DNA of 64,000 nt from Paludibacter sp. GTDB lineage: Bacteria > Bacteroidota > Bacteroidia > Bacteroidales > Paludibacteraceae. The position numbers were made by a program, and so were the translations under genes. This document shows, one piece after another, positions 1 through 4,970 of this stretch. The first letter of the stretch is position 1. Every line of letters begins with the position of its first letter. The DNA is taken from positions 1 to 64,000 of the forward strand of contig JAQTTH010000001.1 in assembly GCA_028710895.1 (NCBI GenBank). The letters run 5' to 3'. Below the pieces are notes generated by a model. It had not been told where the DNA came from and ran no database searches. It saw nothing but the letters and a program-made list of their open reading frames with translations.

Positions 1-10
1 GGTCGCTTTC

Positions 11-128
11 TCCATAACTACTTTGTCTTCTCAACGATCGTTGAATCAAGCTCCTGCAACCGGGAATACGGTTCAACCGACGCTTCCTTGCTGGGTCTTT
101 CAGACCGCAGGAAGCATAAGTATTAGCA
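11..128 (-). repeat. attC-like imperfect inverted repeat (short variant)
   Basis: The element ends 8 bp beyond the stop codon of the first gene. Read in gene direction (minus) its outer ends pair as CTAATACTT with AAGTAGTTA. The interior holds stem pairs GCTTCCT/AGGAAGC and GGTCT/AGACC and the palindrome CAACGATCGTTG at 32-43. Its body differs from the three longer repeats nearby, but its place (directly 3' of a gene) and its fold-back form are the same. The left edge is uncertain because the window starts here. Confidence 0.45.
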
Positions 129-136
129 GTAGATTT

Positions 137-691
137 TTATTTCTTTCGTATTTTTTCGTATTCGGTTTTTAGTTCTTGATAGTTGTCGTCAAATCTAGTT
201 CTCAATCTGTAAGGTTTTCGATAATTTATACTGTTGAAGTAAATTCGATTGTCAGGAAAGAAAACCAATGTGACTGCTTGATTTTCTGCTACGAAATTTA
301 ATTGAGTCTTGAAGATTATATAATCGTCAGTAATTTTATATGATTCCCAATTTAAATTTTTTCCAGCTTCTAACAACTTTTCTTTCGCTATAACTTTTCT
401 TGTGTTTATGTCAATATCAAATTCTTTTAATCTATAAAGGTTTAGAGTTGCTTTACAAATAAATCCAACCGAAGTCATTATTAAAATTGAAAAGAAAATA
501 GCCACAAAATAATCAAGTCTAGTCGGATTATCTTTAAGCTGTTCTGTAATGAGAGAATAGCATACACCTAAACTCAAAGGAATCAAAGTCAAGATTATAA
601 AGTAGTCAAATATCTTCCAAAAAGTCTGTCCAACGAAAACTATCATATTCGTTTCAACTGTTTTGTCGTAATTTAATCCTTCATCTATCAT
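137..691 (-). CDS. Hypothetical membrane protein of a cassette-like array
   Basis: The protein has 184 residues and I do not recognise its family. Two hydrophobic segments, at about residues 24-48 and 59-84, are followed by a polar C-terminal domain of about 95 residues rich in Tyr, Asn and basic residues, ending in IRKK. This looks like a small inner-membrane protein with a soluble C-terminal part. The start ATG at 691 lies only 29 bp from the repeat at 721-870, which leaves no room for an ordinary promoter, so it is probably read from upstream genes. Its 3' end abuts another fold-back repeat at 11-128. One gene followed by one structured repeat is the layout of an integron gene cassette. 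The function is unknown. Confidence 0.7.
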   Translation of the reverse strand: MIDEGLNYDKTVETNMIVFVGQTFWKIFDYFIILTLIPLSLGVCYSLITEQLKDNPTRLDYFVAIFFSILIMTSVGFICKATLNLYRLKEFDIDINTRKVIAKEKLLEAGKNLNWESYKITDDYIIFKTQLNFVAENQAVTLVFFPDNRIYFNSINYRKPYRLRTRFDDNYQELKTEYEKIRKK

Positions 692-720
692 ATCTGTCTT
701 TTGTTTTTTTAAATTTACTG

Positions 721-870
721 CTAACGACCGAGGCTATTGGCATTGGCGGATTGCGGGAGCATTCGCTGTCATGGAACGACAAAGCTAATGCGGGAGCAAA
801 ACCTCCGGAATGCACAGCTTGTCCCGATCTATCGGGATCAGCCAGCCAATGGACATTGGCGTGTGTTAGC
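721..870 (-). repeat. attC-like repeat, copy 2 (150 bp)
   Basis: On the plus strand it starts CTAACGACCGAGGC and ends GTGTGTTAGC, so the termini are complementary (CTAAC/GTTAG). ATTGGCGG near the left and CCAGCCAAT near the right form a second pair. Inside are GCATTCGCT/AGCTAATGC, a CCCGAT/ATCGGG hairpin, and the 9-mer GCGGGAGCA twice, about 37 bp apart. It fills nearly the whole gap between two genes and lies 10 bp past the stop of the gene at 881-1603. Size, fold-back structure and position fit an integron attC site. The R-box trinucleotides (AAC/GTT) are present, but the flanking bases do not fully match the published consensus. Confidence 0.65.
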
Positions 871-880
871 TGCTGGTTTT

Positions 881-1603
881 TTAGTTGTATTCTTTCAAAG
901 GTTTGTAATTCTTGTAGCGAACGTAAACTCCCATATCGTCAGTTATTTTGTCTCGTTTTATATATTTTATCTCTCCTTTTTTGTCTATAACATAGACTAA
1001 TCTATAGTCGCTGTTGTCAACACCTGCAAATTCTATTAAACTATCACCCTTAAGTCTTGCAAATACGGTTGTTGTGCCACCAGTAACAAGGAAAGCATCA
1101 ATACAGTCTAATTCATCATTGTATTGCATATTTGGAAATTCTTCGGAATTGACTATCGAAATCAATTTTTTTTTCGCGTCGTCATAAATGAACAACCGTC
1201 TAACTTCATTTGAACCTCTAGCAGCTTCAGCCGAAATAAAAGTCAAATCATTAAACTTGTCATTGTTAAAGTCGCTTATGTTTGGTTCTAAACCCAGTAT
1301 TGCATCACATTCATACAAATATGTGTTTTTTATATACCAACAGTTTGGTCCTTTTGTGTAGAAATTTACAATGACATATGTGCCGTCGAATACTCTGTGT
1401 TTTATAATTTCAATCTTACTTTTCCCTTTTTCCCCAATCTTAGTGCTGTCTGTGAATGTCTCAATAATTTCTGTATCACGATTCTTGGAGTCATTATAGA
1501 CTTTAACTCGTTTTTCTTTTTGAGTCAGTTGAGTGTCTTTCTTGTCATGTCTAGTTGAACAAGACAGTAAAGTTATAAATATAAAAATTATGCATTTCTT
1601 CAT
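881..1603 (-). CDS. Hypothetical lipoprotein with XAC2610-like C-terminal part
   Basis: The protein has 240 residues. It opens with a short hydrophobic signal and a lipobox (LLSC, Cys near residue 15), so it should be a lipoprotein facing the periplasm or outer membrane. The segment D-F-N-N-D-K-F-N-D-L, then A-R-G-S-N and a Tyr/Leu-rich stretch, resembles the XAC2610/FG-GAP-like proteins with an Asp-Asn-Asp calcium-loop pattern; that is a resemblance by eye, not a confirmed family. It sits between two attC-like repeats, 10 bp from the one downstream and 23 bp from the one upstream. No promoter fits in either gap. Confidence 0.7.
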   Translation of the reverse strand: MKKCIIFIFITLLSCSTRHDKKDTQLTQKEKRVKVYNDSKNRDTEIIETFTDSTKIGEKGKSKIEIIKHRVFDGTYVIVNFYTKGPNCWYIKNTYLYECDAILGLEPNISDFNNDKFNDLTFISAEAARGSNEVRRLFIYDDAKKKLISIVNSEEFPNMQYNDELDCIDAFLVTGGTTTVFARLKGDSLIEFAGVDNSDYRLVYVIDKKGEIKYIKRDKITDDMGVYVRYKNYKPLKEYN

Positions 1604-1626
1604 TTTTTTCGTTTTTAAACTTGCCC

Positions 1627-1797
1627 CTAACGACCGAGGCTATGGGCATTGGCGGCACCGTTTCACGGTATGTCTCATTTGCTGGAGCATTAGCTGTCAT
1701 GGAACGACAAAGCTAATGCAGGAGCAAAACTGCCGGAATGCACAGCTTGTCCCGATCTATGGGGATCAGCCAGCCAATGAACGAGGCGTGTGTTAGC
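1627..1797 (-). repeat. attC-like repeat, copy 3 (171 bp)
   Basis: Same termini as the copy at 721-870 (CTAACGACCGAGGC ... GTGTGTTAGC). The inner pair GCATTAGCT/AGCTAATGC is a perfect 9-bp match here but has a mismatch in copy 2. It carries an extra mini-hairpin ACCG-TTTCA-CGGT that the other copies lack, which explains its greater length. It lies 72 bp past the stop of the gene at 1870-2385 and 23 bp before the start of the next gene. Confidence 0.65.
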
Positions 1798-1869
1798 AGC
1801 TGTAATTTTCTTGTTTGAAATTCATTTCGTTCAGATTATTTTTCAAAAGTCGCGTATTCATGAAATTAT

Positions 1870-2385
1870 TTAATTCGGTCGAAGTGGAGGCGGTGGTTTC
1901 AAATAATTAGTTGTCTTGAAATCAGCACATGTATCAATTCGATTTTCTAGATTTGGTTTCTTTCTTAGCAAATACTTTGCGAGTTTAGATAACTCGTTGT
2001 CAATATTATGTATTCCCGTAATCGTTGACTTCAGAATTGTGTCAGGATATTCAATTCTAAATATGTACATTCCGCAGTCGGCACAATTTTCATCATAAAC
2101 ACTGTCTATTTTTCCTTTCTTTAGTTTGGATAGAAATATATTAATGCTGTCAATTGTCTGACTATTCAATGTATCCTTATAATAGGTCGCTTTATTTGTT
2201 TCTCCATGTATTTCGTTTTGGTTATAATTCAAGATTCCGTCTCTAGTTATCATTAAAGACACTCCTCCAGACCAACCATTACTGTAGGTAAATTCTAAAG
2301 AATTTGCTATCAAATAATTGGGCTTTTCTGTCTGACATGACCAACAGAAAATAATGGTTGCAATAATGGTTGTTATTTTTTTCAT
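1870..2385 (-). CDS. Hypothetical small lipoprotein
   Basis: The protein has 171 residues and an N-terminal signal with a lipobox (CWSC, Cys near residue 17), so it is predicted to be a lipoprotein. The mature part has a C-A-D-C pair near residue 110, a further Cys near 152, and a Pro-rich tail (LKPPPPLRPN). I do not recognise the family. It is the third gene in the minus-strand array. Its start is 10 bp from the repeat at 2396-2516, so it cannot have its own standard promoter. Confidence 0.68.
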   Translation of the reverse strand: MKKITTIIATIIFCWSCQTEKPNYLIANSLEFTYSNGWSGGVSLMITRDGILNYNQNEIHGETNKATYYKDTLNSQTIDSINIFLSKLKKGKIDSVYDENCADCGMYIFRIEYPDTILKSTITGIHNIDNELSKLAKYLLRKKPNLENRIDTCADFKTTNYLKPPPPLRPN

Positions 2386-2395
2386 ATTATAGCTG

Positions 2396-2516
2396 CTAAC
2401 GACCTAGGCTATGGGCATTTGGCGGTTTGCGGGAGCAAAACGGCCGGAATGCACAGTTTGTCCCGATCTATCGGGATCAGCCAGCCAATGAACATAGGCC
2501 TGTGTTGGCGGTTAGT
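2396..2516 (-). repeat. attC-like repeat, copy 4 (short form, about 120 bp)
   Basis: It starts CTAACGACCTAGGC and ends CATAGGCCTGTGTTGGCGGTTAG on the plus strand. Compared with copy 2 it lacks exactly the module between the two GCGGGAGCA 9-mers and keeps one of them, as expected after recombination or slippage between those direct repeats. The CCCGAT/ATCGGG hairpin and the CCAGCCAAT arm are unchanged. It lies 17 bp past the stop of the gene at 2534-3463. Confidence 0.62.
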
Positions 2517-2533
2517 AGTTTTGTTTTTCGTTG

Positions 2534-3463
2534 TTAGTGCAAAGTCTCATAATGTAAATTATGAGTTACTCTAAGCTTGTTGTTTTCATCAAAACACTCC
2601 ATTTTAATTAGTTTGTTATTTTTGTCGTAAAGATTAATATACTTCCTCATTAAAATCTTTTTGTTGTCATATTTTTCAATCAATACTGTGTTACCATTTT
2701 TGTCAAGTTTTGAGATTTCCGAATAAAATGACAAAATCCAGTTATTGTCTTTGTCTATATTATGGTTTACATGATTCATGATAACTTCGTTATTCTTATA
2801 TTCAAATGTCTCGGTATAATAGAGTGTTGTGTCATTTAAAAATGAATTTTCCTCAATCAATTTGTTATTCTCATATTTATAGGTGTAACGGTTTTGAACA
2901 GAGTACGATTTGTTCTTAATTGGTTCGTAATGTTCTATAAGTTTATTCTTTTCATTATACGTGTTTGTCCACGATCTATTGTACAGCCATATTCGTTCCG
3001 TTGTTTTGTCGTCTTCAGTAATCAAATCTCCATGCGGCATGTTAGCTTTTAATCTTCTACGACAATCAAATACAGTTATATTGCAACTTTGGTTGTTGAG
3101 ATACCTATAGTTTTGTCTCACAGTGTCACCTGACGGTTGTTCGATAAAGTCTCTACGTATCAGCTTCTTGTTCTTGTTGTAATAATAGTAATAGTCTCCA
3201 TTTCCTGCTCCATCATACTCAGAAGTCATATAATTGCGGTAGGTTTCGCTGATAATTAAACTGTCATGGTAATATTCGATTTTTGTTACTTTCCTTTTAA
3301 GGCTATCTCCATTCAAAAACTGTTCTGTTTTCACCTCTCGATTTGGCTTGAAGTCAACGTATATAGTGTCAGACAAAAGAGTTTGTCTATTGTCTTTTTC
3401 TTTTGTAGCGCTACATGAAGTCGCAATTGATATTACCAATATAGTCAAGAGTAAATGTCTCAT
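2534..3463 (-). CDS. Hypothetical lipoprotein with YD-like Tyr/Asn repeats
   Basis: The protein has 309 residues from the ATG at 3463. This start is chosen because a signal peptide and lipobox (IATSC) follow at once; an upstream ATG at 3493 would add a Trp/Lys-rich stretch that spoils the signal. The mature part has repeated motifs such as Y-N-E-K-N-K-L-I-E and Y-E-N-N-K-L-I-E, similar to the YD/RHS-like strands of Bacteroidetes surface proteins. It is the most upstream gene of the minus-strand array. It alone has a long leader and a recognisable promoter (3676-3707), so it probably leads the transcript. Confidence 0.72.
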   Translation of the reverse strand: MRHLLLTILVISIATSCSATKEKDNRQTLLSDTIYVDFKPNREVKTEQFLNGDSLKRKVTKIEYYHDSLIISETYRNYMTSEYDGAGNGDYYYYYNKNKKLIRRDFIEQPSGDTVRQNYRYLNNQSCNITVFDCRRRLKANMPHGDLITEDDKTTERIWLYNRSWTNTYNEKNKLIEHYEPIKNKSYSVQNRYTYKYENNKLIEENSFLNDTTLYYTETFEYKNNEVIMNHVNHNIDKDNNWILSFYSEISKLDKNGNTVLIEKYDNKKILMRKYINLYDKNNKLIKMECFDENNKLRVTHNLHYETLH

Positions 3464-3496
3464 TTCTTTTTTTTTAATATGCCACCAACACATATA

Positions 3497-3628
3497 TATG
3501 CGAACTTAAAGTTGTGTATGCGAAATATAAATTCGCATATATCTACTATAGAAGCTAAACTTACACCAGCTATATAGTTGATATTCTACAATGTAGCTAA
3601 TGCATTTGTTTTTAACTCAGTTCGCATA
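3497..3628 (-). promoter_or_regulatory. Four TATGCGAA motifs in the array leader
   Basis: The octamer TATGCGAA occurs at 3497-3504 and 3517-3524 on the plus strand, and inverted (TTCGCATA) at 3532-3539 and 3621-3628. All four lie between the inferred transcription start near 3669 and the first gene start at 3463. In the transcript, two sense copies precede two antisense copies, so mutually exclusive hairpins are possible, for example 3517-3524 with 3532-3539. The role is unknown: an operator, a leader switch or a recombinase-binding array are all possible. A CGTTAG hexamer lies at 3638-3643 (minus), resembling the repeat termini. Confidence 0.4.
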
Positions 3629-3675
3629 TCCAACTTTCTAACGGGTTGATCGTTTCTTTCTTTTTATTTAAGTCC

Positions 3676-3707
3676 CAAAGATAAAAACAATATTTTACAT
3701 TAACAAC
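3676..3707 (-). promoter_or_regulatory. Bacteroidetes-type promoter reading into the cassette-like array
   Basis: On the minus strand, GTTG (3704-3707) is followed after 20 nt by TATCTTTG (3676-3683), an excellent fit to the Bacteroidetes -33/-7 pattern (TTG, N19-21, TAnnTTTG). Transcription would begin near 3669 and run left through all four array genes. I found no other such promoter between the array genes. Confidence 0.6.
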
Positions 3708-3792
3708 ATTTACTTAACTTATTTCCAATATTCTTTTTTATTTATTTTCGATTGTTTTAATTCGTGATGTATGCAGGCATTTCACATAAAAT

Positions 3793-3828
3793 AAAAACCG
3801 TCAGCACCCCTGGGTGTTGACGGTTTTT
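3793..3828. terminator. Strong bidirectional terminator
   Basis: AAAAACCGTCA at the left and TGACGGTTTTT at the right frame GCACCC-CT-GGGTGT, a stem of about 17 bp with one mismatch and with A and T tracts on both sides. It lies between the fibronectin-III gene (stop at 3907) and the array promoter, so it ends transcription of the former and insulates the latter. Confidence 0.85.
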
Positions 3829-3906
3829 GGGAGTAAGCGCCTATAGTACGAAAAGCTATATCCACTATCAGTTGGTTCGTTTTTTACGACTATAGACGTT
3901 CGACAC

Positions 3907-4533
3907 TTACAGTACAAAACTTGTTACTATTTCGCTCCATACGCGGGTAGGATAACTTCCTGCACCGGCCACACGGAATTCGTATTGCTTACCGCTTGTA
4001 AGTCCGTCAATCTGGAGTTTGCGTTTGGTGCTTGTTTTTTGTATCCATATAGCATTGCCCGCAGGTGATAGTTCGCGGTATTCAAATTCGTAGAAATTGG
4101 CATAATCCACCACATCGCAGGTGAGCATGATAGTACCTTTGTTGCTGCCGGGTTTGGCAGTCAGGTTTTCGGGTTTGTCGAGTTCGCCTACCGTACTTGG
4201 TTTTTTGTTTACATCAAAGCCAGTGCTTAGTATCAATGCTTCGTCGCCACCGCTTGTTGTTTGCACATAGTCGGCAAGTTCCTTCAACAACGCTACCAAT
4301 GCTGCCCGCAGGTTGTTTTTATTTACTGTGTCTTCTTTGGTGCCATACTCCACCTTGCCCAACGCCAGGTTGTAGAGCACAATGGCTGCCTTCAAATCGG
4401 CAATGGTAGGTTTTGGACTTGGAAACGCAGCATTGTCGGTCAGTTTGTCGGCAATGTAACTCGATTTGGTGCTTAAGCCCGAATCGGTAAACTTTGTAGA
4501 TGAAAAGTCTTTTGAAATTTTTGAATTTCCCAT
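3907..4533 (-). CDS. Fibronectin type III domain protein
   Basis: The protein has 208 residues with no signal peptide. The first 110 or so residues are helical and Ala/Leu-rich. From about residue 125 a fibronectin-III module follows: P-E-N-L-T-A-K-P-G, then Y-E-F-E-Y-R-E-L, then L-T-S-G-K-Q-Y-E-F-R-V-A-G, then W-S-E-I-V. Small FN3 proteins of this type are common hypotheticals in Bacteroidetes and have no established role. It is a monocistronic unit with a strong terminator after it. An 800-bp gene-free stretch with repeats lies upstream. Confidence 0.8.
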   Translation of the reverse strand: MGNSKISKDFSSTKFTDSGLSTKSSYIADKLTDNAAFPSPKPTIADLKAAIVLYNLALGKVEYGTKEDTVNKNNLRAALVALLKELADYVQTTSGGDEALILSTGFDVNKKPSTVGELDKPENLTAKPGSNKGTIMLTCDVVDYANFYEFEYRELSPAGNAIWIQKTSTKRKLQIDGLTSGKQYEFRVAGAGSYPTRVWSEIVTSFVL

Positions 4534-4638: not shown

Positions 4639-4737
4639 CGCCCCTAAATCCCCTAAAGGGGACTTTTTGCCGGGTAAAAAAGCTCATTTTTATACACATT
4701 CCGAATTTCGATAGCCCCCTTTAGGGGGTTGGGGGCA
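4639..4737. repeat. Inverted pair of a dispersed CCCCTAAA repeat
   Basis: CCGCCCCTAAATCCCCTAAAGGGG (about 4639-4662) and CCCCCTTTAGGGGGTTGGGGGC (4715-4736) are inverted relatives of each other about 50 bp apart. A third relative, CCTAAATCCCCTTAAGGGG, lies at 30874-30892. Short repeats of this kind are frequent between genes in Bacteroidetes. I see no coding potential. Confidence 0.6.
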
Positions 4738-4832
4738 GTTAAGAATGAGTCGTTTAATATAAACTAATTTATTGCACGTACGAATTTATTATTGATTATA
4801 TTATTCCGCTTACCTGCCCCAAAATTGCTATA

Positions 4833-4970
4833 TTCTTGTACAAGAATGCTCCATTCTTCATCCAAAATGACCTCATTCTTGTACAAGAATGAAGCATTAT
4901 TCCCCCGTTTTATCGTGAAACGGATGAGAGATGAAGCATTATTGTACCATAATAAACCGGATTTGTATCG
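4833..4970. repeat. Palindromic low-complexity tract with GTAC-centred units
   Basis: TTCTTGTACAAGAA (4833-4846) and CATTCTTGTACAAGAATG (4874-4891) are perfect palindromes, and ATTATTGTACCATAAT near 4939-4952 is a weaker one. ATGAAGCATTATT occurs at about 4889 and again at about 4931. Conceptual translation on the plus strand gives loosely 7-residue units (FLYKNEA, KRMRDEA, LLYHNKP). The tract lies within the 813-bp gene-free gap 4534-5346. Open frames across it exist on both strands but lack convincing starts, so I treat it as a degenerate minisatellite. Confidence 0.5.

Follow-up and report, generated by a model that had tools for sequence, protein, structure and literature searches.

At one end of a contig of Paludibacter sp. 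(genome G000; 4.9 Mb, 41 contigs), four genes lie in a single direction, each followed by a structured site or the remnant of one. Is this a cassette array of integron type, and if so, which recombinase would serve it? The window analyzed here is the whole stretch of 64,000 nucleotides, bases 1–64000 of contig C14, so its left edge is the contig end; the array occupies positions 1–3706 on the minus strand. An earlier note, made from the letters of the DNA, had taken these for cassettes of integron layout, lacking an integrase and led by a single promoter. That description is supported: the sites fold, the gene order is not fixed, and no integron integrase (IntI) exceeds the profile cut-off in the genome. 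It requires two corrections: one of the four repeats (11–128) belongs to an inserted element and is no attC site, and relatives carry a recombinase other than IntI beside such arrays. From its sequence the array is close to certain to be of integron type, and the best reading appears to be a satellite array of an apparently undescribed Bacteroidota integron type, resembling clusters of attC sites lacking integron-integrases (CALINs).

The cassette array

All four minus-strand genes that the earlier note called are borne out (137–691, 881–1603, 1870–2385 and 2534–3463), as is the Bacteroidetes-type promoter motif at the right end of the array (3676–3706). From this Pc-like motif, of the form TTG...TAnnTTTG, the array reads through a leader (3487–3675) containing an attI-like point, the GTT at 3487–3489. 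Cassette 1 (2400–3488) consists of a gene for a 309-residue lipoprotein-like protein (2534–3463) and attC-like site 1 (2393–2510); cassette 2 (1631–2399) of a gene for 171 residues (1870–2385) and site 2 (1624–1798); and cassette 3 (725–1630) of a gene for 240 residues (881–1603) and site 3 (718–871). Cassette 4 (123–724) is truncated; its gene (137–691) encodes a membrane protein-like product of 184 residues, and its left end is a site remnant, TGCTAA. Positions 1–122 are the end of a ~250-nt non-coding element within the fourth site that continues past the contig end. There is one site per gene, with 14, 28 and 76 nt from stop codon to AAC and 15, 28 and 34 nt from GTT to the following start codon, and such clustered attC-like sites, with one gene each in a single direction, are found both in the window and in arrays of relatives.

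Four structured repeats had been expected between the genes. Three of them (718–871, 1624–1798 and 2393–2510) are homologous, with 68–93% identity to one copy over 104 ungapped nt, but the fourth, at 11–128, does not align with the others and is the end of the different, inserted element. None of the four array proteins exceeds a Pfam cut-off. Elsewhere in the genome, one of 10 proteins of the C26 region does so (RDD), as do two of six proteins from other site-bearing regions (Nmad2; TonB_C with MORN_2). The window has no Rfam match at the gathering threshold and none within 1–4000 at E ≤ 1, and contains no tRNA or tmRNA.

BLAST with one site copy gave 40 matches in the genome, query included. 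Twenty candidate sites were extracted from 17 regions, and 17 were used to build a covariance model, R1, which was used for all attC scoring here in place of the published attC model of IntegronFinder. Window sites 1 to 3, all copies in the model, score 129.2, 158.4 and 175.9 bits. With up to 20 candidates scored per genome, R1 had matches at E ≤ 0.001 in 50 of 149 relatives; within the genus it matched 43 of 48 genomes, own genome counted, and the other five had no match. Together, these BLAST and R1 counts put the repeats far above chance. The sites mostly begin with YAAC and end with GTTR, the middle varies by whole modules, and the arms are complementary (CTATG.TT.CATTGGC.T.GG against CC.GCCAATG.CC.CATAG). 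A stricter definition, GCTAAC N60–90 GTTAGC, had no match in the window, where the actual sites are longer and more variable.

Cassette boundaries and folding

Crossover in integron cassettes falls at G|TT, so the bases after GTT would be the first of the next cassette, and their reverse complement is predicted to precede AAC at that cassette's own far end. Of 129 R1 matches, 118 entered the test; three duplicates (L143 twice, L144), a lone site (L212), three matches cut by contig ends and four weak ones (26.8–31.3 bits) were left out. AAC and GTT were found as expected in 101, which gave 51 adjacent pairs 200–1600 nt apart. The two ends of the same cassette match over a mean prefix of 5.08 nt, with at least 5 nt in 38/51, against 1.39 nt (1/51) for the abutting site as it stands and 1.53 nt (2/51) for a reversed control; 5000 permutations gave a mean of 1.88 nt and a maximum of 2.53. 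The same relation holds at eight other Bacteroidota loci with different site sequences, where own ends match in 11 of 15 cassettes and the abutting site in none of 15, with a mean prefix of 5.47 against a permutation maximum of 3.47. These are eight of the 11 loci with printed repeats, from which the patterns were written by hand; L169, L209 and L217, whose repeats lack the plan, were left out. Among the 17 pairs that match over seven bases, position 8 is A against G, an A–C mismatch in the fold, in 13. Two of the four window cassettes match over seven bases, cassette 2 (AGCAGCTATAAT / AGCAGCTGTAAT) and, by eye from the sequence within 123–724, cassette 4 (AGCAGTAAATTT / AGCAGTAGATTT). The core-site consensus of attC is RYYYAAC / GTTRRRY; across 101 sites, GTTR is present in 98, GTTRRRY in 18 and RYYYAAC in 19.

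Folding of the repeats, which the earlier note anticipated, is clear for two of them as single-stranded DNA (z = −3.36 for 721–870 and −3.66 for 1627–1776, only part of that site having been folded), but weaker for 2396–2516 (z = −1.79; 10 of 200 shuffles folded equally well) and for 11–128 (z = −1.63). The stem, as drawn on the alignment, does contain an unpaired base of the kind that it looked for. Integrons recombine the bottom strand of attC, and it is this strand that folding favors (PMC8946536). When the sites of the circular form are rebuilt from the 51 cassettes, the bottom strand folds more stably than the top in 50, and its fold is more stable than in the integrated arrangement in 46, with one equal. 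Mean bottom-strand folds are −35.5 kcal/mol for rebuilt sites, −30.1 for integrated sites and −30.3 with a random mate.

Cassettes in related genomes

In G005 a copy of cassette 2 with 86% nucleotide identity extends from 8 nt inside the start of the cassette approximately to its R'' end and sits between two R1 matches, of which one is weak at 35.8 bits; homologues of the two neighbors that it has in the window were not found in G005. Among the 47 other same-genus genomes, the cassette 3 gene has homologues in two, G012 (65%) and G016 (55%), and the cassette 1 gene in none. The homologue in G016 is flanked by two R1 matches, and the stretch around that in G012 contains none. Because cassette 2 occurs in G005 without its window neighbors, and the cassette 1 and 3 genes in 0/47 and 2/47 genomes, cassette order is not fixed; the same gene order with the same repeats in relatives, which the earlier note would have held against mobility, is not what was found. 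Cassette units, site structure, strand bias, the linkage described below and the lack of a fixed order can all be read from the sequences themselves.

A recombinase linked to the arrays

The intI gene that the earlier note advised seeking is not apparent in the genome, where the best match to TIGR02249 reaches 78.6 bits against a cut-off of 265 (many of the 41 contigs break off in arrays, and a piece may be missing). In one of the 149 relatives, G096, the cut-off is exceeded (367 bits). This canonical IntI lies at L100:1459–2367, and since G096 belongs to the same order as the window genome, a single order contains both recombinase types. The TIGR02249 search also exposed proteins of about 540–600 residues (~560 amino acids), here named HARP-YR, and the evidence below links them to the arrays.

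A scan of 84,980 species genomes with two peptide patterns yielded 102 HARP-YR relatives, of which 80 were kept. All 14 R1 matches in these 80 loci are downstream of HARP-YR on the same strand, eight of them strong (70.8–140.9 bits) and six weak (22.2–24.4 bits). Downstream same-strand sequence makes up 12% of the strand-bases searched, so that uniform placement would give this result with a chance of 2e-13 for 14 matches, or 8.5e-10 for 10 loci. A contig end falls within 2 kb downstream of HARP-YR in 50/80 loci and within 2 kb upstream in 6/80, and breaks on the downstream side are what a repeated leader followed by an array would be expected to cause. Other taxa have arrays of different repeats on the same plan, and at the eight such loci taken further all detected sites are downstream of HARP-YR. 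Adding three loci with recombinase and R1 sites (L262 and L264 not among them) gives 11 loci; in 10 of these a GTT insertion point, matching over 6–7 nt, can be predicted from the first cassette detected. The predicted point is 123–449 nt past the HARP-YR stop in seven of the 11 and farther (1035–5080 nt) in three; L196 failed. This linkage and site prediction make HARP-YR the likely integrase of the array.

Within the genus, HARP-YR is present in whole or in part in 15 of 48 genomes (E < 1e-100), with G013, G034 and G040 holding fragments only, that of G040 with a stop. Fifteen genomes have both HARP-YR and R1 sites, 28 have R1 sites without HARP-YR, and five have neither. HARP-YR is also found in the cultured genera Arcicella, Solitalea, Belliella, Algoriphagus and Arundinibacter, with site-like repeats at its loci in Arcicella, Solitalea, Belliella and Arundinibacter. 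The window genome encodes XerC and XerD, and a HARP-YR profile (A3) gives only Xer-level matches there, the best at 8.6e-38.

The C-terminal half of HARP-YR is a tyrosine recombinase nearest to XerA: two of the proteins score 223 and 225 bits against NF040815 (cut-off 220), and 213 and 218 bits against TIGR02249, under 265. Among solved structures, PDB 5hxy ranks first and IntI4 (2a3v) second. R407, H496, R499, H522 and Y531, which we take to be the catalytic residues, are invariant in the alignment. The N-terminal half, ~270 residues, contains three repeats recognized from sequence alone, with W-x6-W-x-[IVLM]-P at 36, 140 and 224, and an alignment of 21 sequences shows no variation at the W and P residues. 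From the first Arg motif to H-x-x-R the distance is 92–96 residues in the 19 HARP-YR proteins with both motifs found, 135 in 13 IntI and 98 in one Xer. HARP-YR does not have the IntI-specific insertion and is ~40 residues shorter where IntI has its own domain, the additional domain that marks integron integrases (PMC9668308, PMC8138268). In a tree built from 89 of 95 rows (L175, L177, L180, L206, L100 and P0121, truncated or doubtful, were dropped), IntI forms one clade (100/100) with no HARP-YR inside it, and HARP-YR stands apart from the two Xer rows; some branches are long and the bootstrap values rough and unsettled, and a single search supplied the IntI rows, each sharing 74% identity or more with one protein. 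A protein search returned at least 5186 HARP-YR relatives at E ≤ 1e-20 among 8000 scored, the best 120 listed being 53–85% identical.

Leader and promoter

The promoter motif of the window (3676–3706, minus strand; TTGTTAATGTAAAATATTGTTTTTATCTTTG) recurs after HARP-YR in two of three relatives examined, nearly identical and just past the recombinase stop in G036 (TTGTTAATGCTAAAAATAGTGTTTATCTTTG) and G017 (TTGTTAATGTAAAATATAATATCTATCTTTG). Its distance from the extracted leader end is 251 nt in the window, 268 nt in G036 and 266 nt in G017; the pattern was not found in the leader of G032 nor in five other leaders of the window genome. One of the latter, in C19, resembles the leader adjoining the recombinase in G032, and the leader of the window is of the same type as those following the recombinase in relatives. 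The window thus appears to hold a leader of the HARP-YR integron type without the recombinase. AttI-like leaders without an adjacent recombinase also head or interrupt other arrays of the window genome (L031:1770–1925 and 3690–3790, L089, L040 and L088; contigs C26, C13, C39 and C19), and satellite arrays therefore look common.

The element inserted in the fourth site

The 125-nt end of the element at the left of the window recurs unchanged at the ends of C13, C19 and C32 and with 82% identity in C28, and five occurrences of its opposite end were found. Copies showing both ends measure 254 nt in C28 (C28:11441–11700), 251 nt in L270 and 273 nt in L276. Of the loci where a left end is plausible, 17 in all (16 from the element search plus C28, chance matches set aside), 14 carry TAA immediately ahead of the element, and TAA also precedes all four identical copies of the window genome, which places the element inside the left (R'') end of attC sites. 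Since the window starts at contig base 1, the rest of the fourth site lies outside the contig. Element matches occur in 19 of 48 same-genus genomes. An IS200/IS605-type transposase was considered as a source and rejected, with no Y1_Tnp match in the genome at E ≤ 0.001.

IS1111-attC elements and group IIC-attC introns sit at a fixed place in attC sites, as does this element; it differs in lying in the R'' box, in having no Rfam match at the window, and in that complete copies (L090, L270 and L276; 251–273 nt) leave no room for a transposase or maturase gene. Another repeated sequence terminates within attC-like sites where two contigs break off, those of L034 (C13 end) and L041 (C20 start). 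At L169, group II intron matches (Rfam RF01999, RF00029; 14883–15003, 16643–16718 and 19851–19926) lie downstream of the HARP-YR gene among repeats with a CATAAC-like end, an arrangement that seems to us reminiscent of group IIC-attC introns. Beyond the array, two inverted repeats lie at 4642–4735 and 4821–4901 of the window, between it and the plus-strand genes.

Weighing the explanations

Taken as a whole, it is strongly favored that window 1–3706 is an integron-type array with HARP-YR as its cognate recombinase. In it a promoter motif and an attI-like leader precede four cassettes of one gene apiece; an attC-like site closes every cassette, that of the fourth being interrupted. Cassettes would travel as circles with their ends joined at the G|TT point; the bottom strand of a site would form a hairpin, which a tyrosine recombinase would join to the leader or to another site, and the presumably promoterless cassette genes would be read from the leader promoter. 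The cognate recombinase is most likely the ~560-residue, XerA-like HARP-YR with its three tandem N-terminal repeats, which in relatives immediately precedes a leader and array of this kind. As the genome assembly lacks HARP-YR, the array may be served in trans or may be a relic.

Several points weigh against this explanation. Recombination itself was not observed, and the catalytic role of HARP-YR, the single-strand mechanism and transcription from the promoter are inferred. End complementarity is poor in two of the four window cassettes, cassette 3 (prefix 2) and cassette 1 measured against the leader, whose GTT flank matches the first cassette's end weakly (prefix 2, 4/8 bases). Strict GTTRRRY is found in just 18/101 sites, and the strict promoter pattern in one of six leaders of the genome, with no fixed place in 18 other loci. 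The HARP label derives from a Pfam match below threshold, 15.5 bits where 25 is required, obtained for one of three proteins, and the name HARP-YR is therefore provisional. Co-occurrence alone is not significant (15/15 versus 28/33; Fisher p = 0.17) and is not used as proof, and 28 of 43 site-bearing same-genus genomes lack HARP-YR at E < 1e-100. These include G016 (L258, L259), a single contig with at least 19 R1 matches in which the recombinase profile finds only Xer-level matches. Shorter HARP-YR fragments (1e-41 to 1e-60) in five of the 28 (G008, G021, G022, G025 and G043) suggest that the absence is partly a matter of assembly.

The same absence of the full gene from most site-bearing relatives, together with its XerA-like recombinase half and the XerC and XerD of the window genome, would suit a HARP-YR that is a mere neighbor, attracted by the leader or array or engaged in another task such as dimer resolution, with XerC/XerD or some other recombinase moving the cassettes. 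The predicted insertion point, less than 450 nt from the HARP-YR stop in 7/11 loci of several families, and the placement of all R1 matches on the HARP-YR strand make this unlikely. Slightly less credible still is an ordinary integron relic, built by a canonical IntI that has since disappeared or works in trans from a different cell or element, and to which HARP-YR would be unrelated. The sites do follow the attC plan, G096 carries a canonical IntI within the same order, and IntI relatives are plentiful in public sequence, where a protein search finds some named from Bacteroidales; arrays without IntI are common in bacteria and archaea according to one paper (PMC9668308). However, IntI exceeds its cut-off in 1/149 relatives whereas sites occur in 50/149, and it is HARP-YR, not IntI, that occupies the head of the arrays. 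A fixed, immobile operon of unrelated genes spaced by structured repeats resembling repetitive extragenic palindromes would explain co-directional genes with one upstream promoter motif in common, but cassette ends match each other and not the adjoining site, and neighbors vary between genomes. Sequence comparison thus largely refutes that explanation, which appears highly improbable.

Comparison with known systems

Integrons are the textbook platform for gene capture. In a survey of complete genomes, Bacteroidetes had at first only integrase-only elements and later one complete integron, in Salinibacter ruber (PMC9024848), and another paper reports integrons in Bacteroidota at varying prevalence (PMC9668308). 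A search of the open-access literature (PMC; titles and abstract openings, with subscription papers and preprints outside the search) found no paper pairing a HARP-YR-like recombinase with Bacteroidota cassette arrays, and it is on this basis that the type is called undescribed. The finding of a non-IntI recombinase beside the same kind of array in relatives suggests that a gene-capture system of a major bacterial phylum has been overlooked. It is plausible, and we lean towards the view, that Bacteroidota possess a second kind of integron, with a XerA-side integrase lacking the IntI insertion held to be essential, three N-terminal repeats that may hold folded single-stranded attC, and one recombinase serving many leader-headed satellite arrays in trans. 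If HARP-YR is the integrase, tools that require the IntI domain miss a cassette system present in cultured genera; the IntI-specific insertion would not be the sole route to recombining folded single-stranded DNA, the origin of integrons would be opened to comparison, and a large store of unknown mobile genes would be exposed.

The array shares with sedentary chromosomal integrons and CALINs its candidate promoter and attI-like point, one-gene cassettes in one direction, YAAC...GTTR ends, bottom-strand folding bias (50/51 sites), near-alike sites within a genome and occurrence without an integrase. In class 1 integrons the integrase gene is divergent from the cassettes. Unlike in IntI integrons, the linked recombinase here is of another kind than IntI, and its gene precedes the cassettes on their own strand; complementary cassette ends extend up to ~12 nt, with the A–C mismatch at position 8 in 13/17; several leader-headed arrays are scattered through one genome; and strict GTTRRRY is limited to 18/101 sites.

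HARP-YR resembles XerA, XerC and XerD in a catalytic half closest to XerA and without the IntI insertion, but differs from them in its ~270-residue three-repeat N-terminal extension, its linkage to cassette arrays and its separate place in the tree. Like canonical IntI (TIGR02249), it is a tyrosine recombinase adjoining an attI-like site and cassettes; IntI4 (2a3v) is its second-best structure, and NCBI NF040815, which it matches, is itself titled 'tyrosine recombinase/integron integrase'. It differs from canonical IntI in scoring 213–218 bits, under the cut-off of 265, in being ~40 residues shorter, and in lying outside the separate IntI clade.

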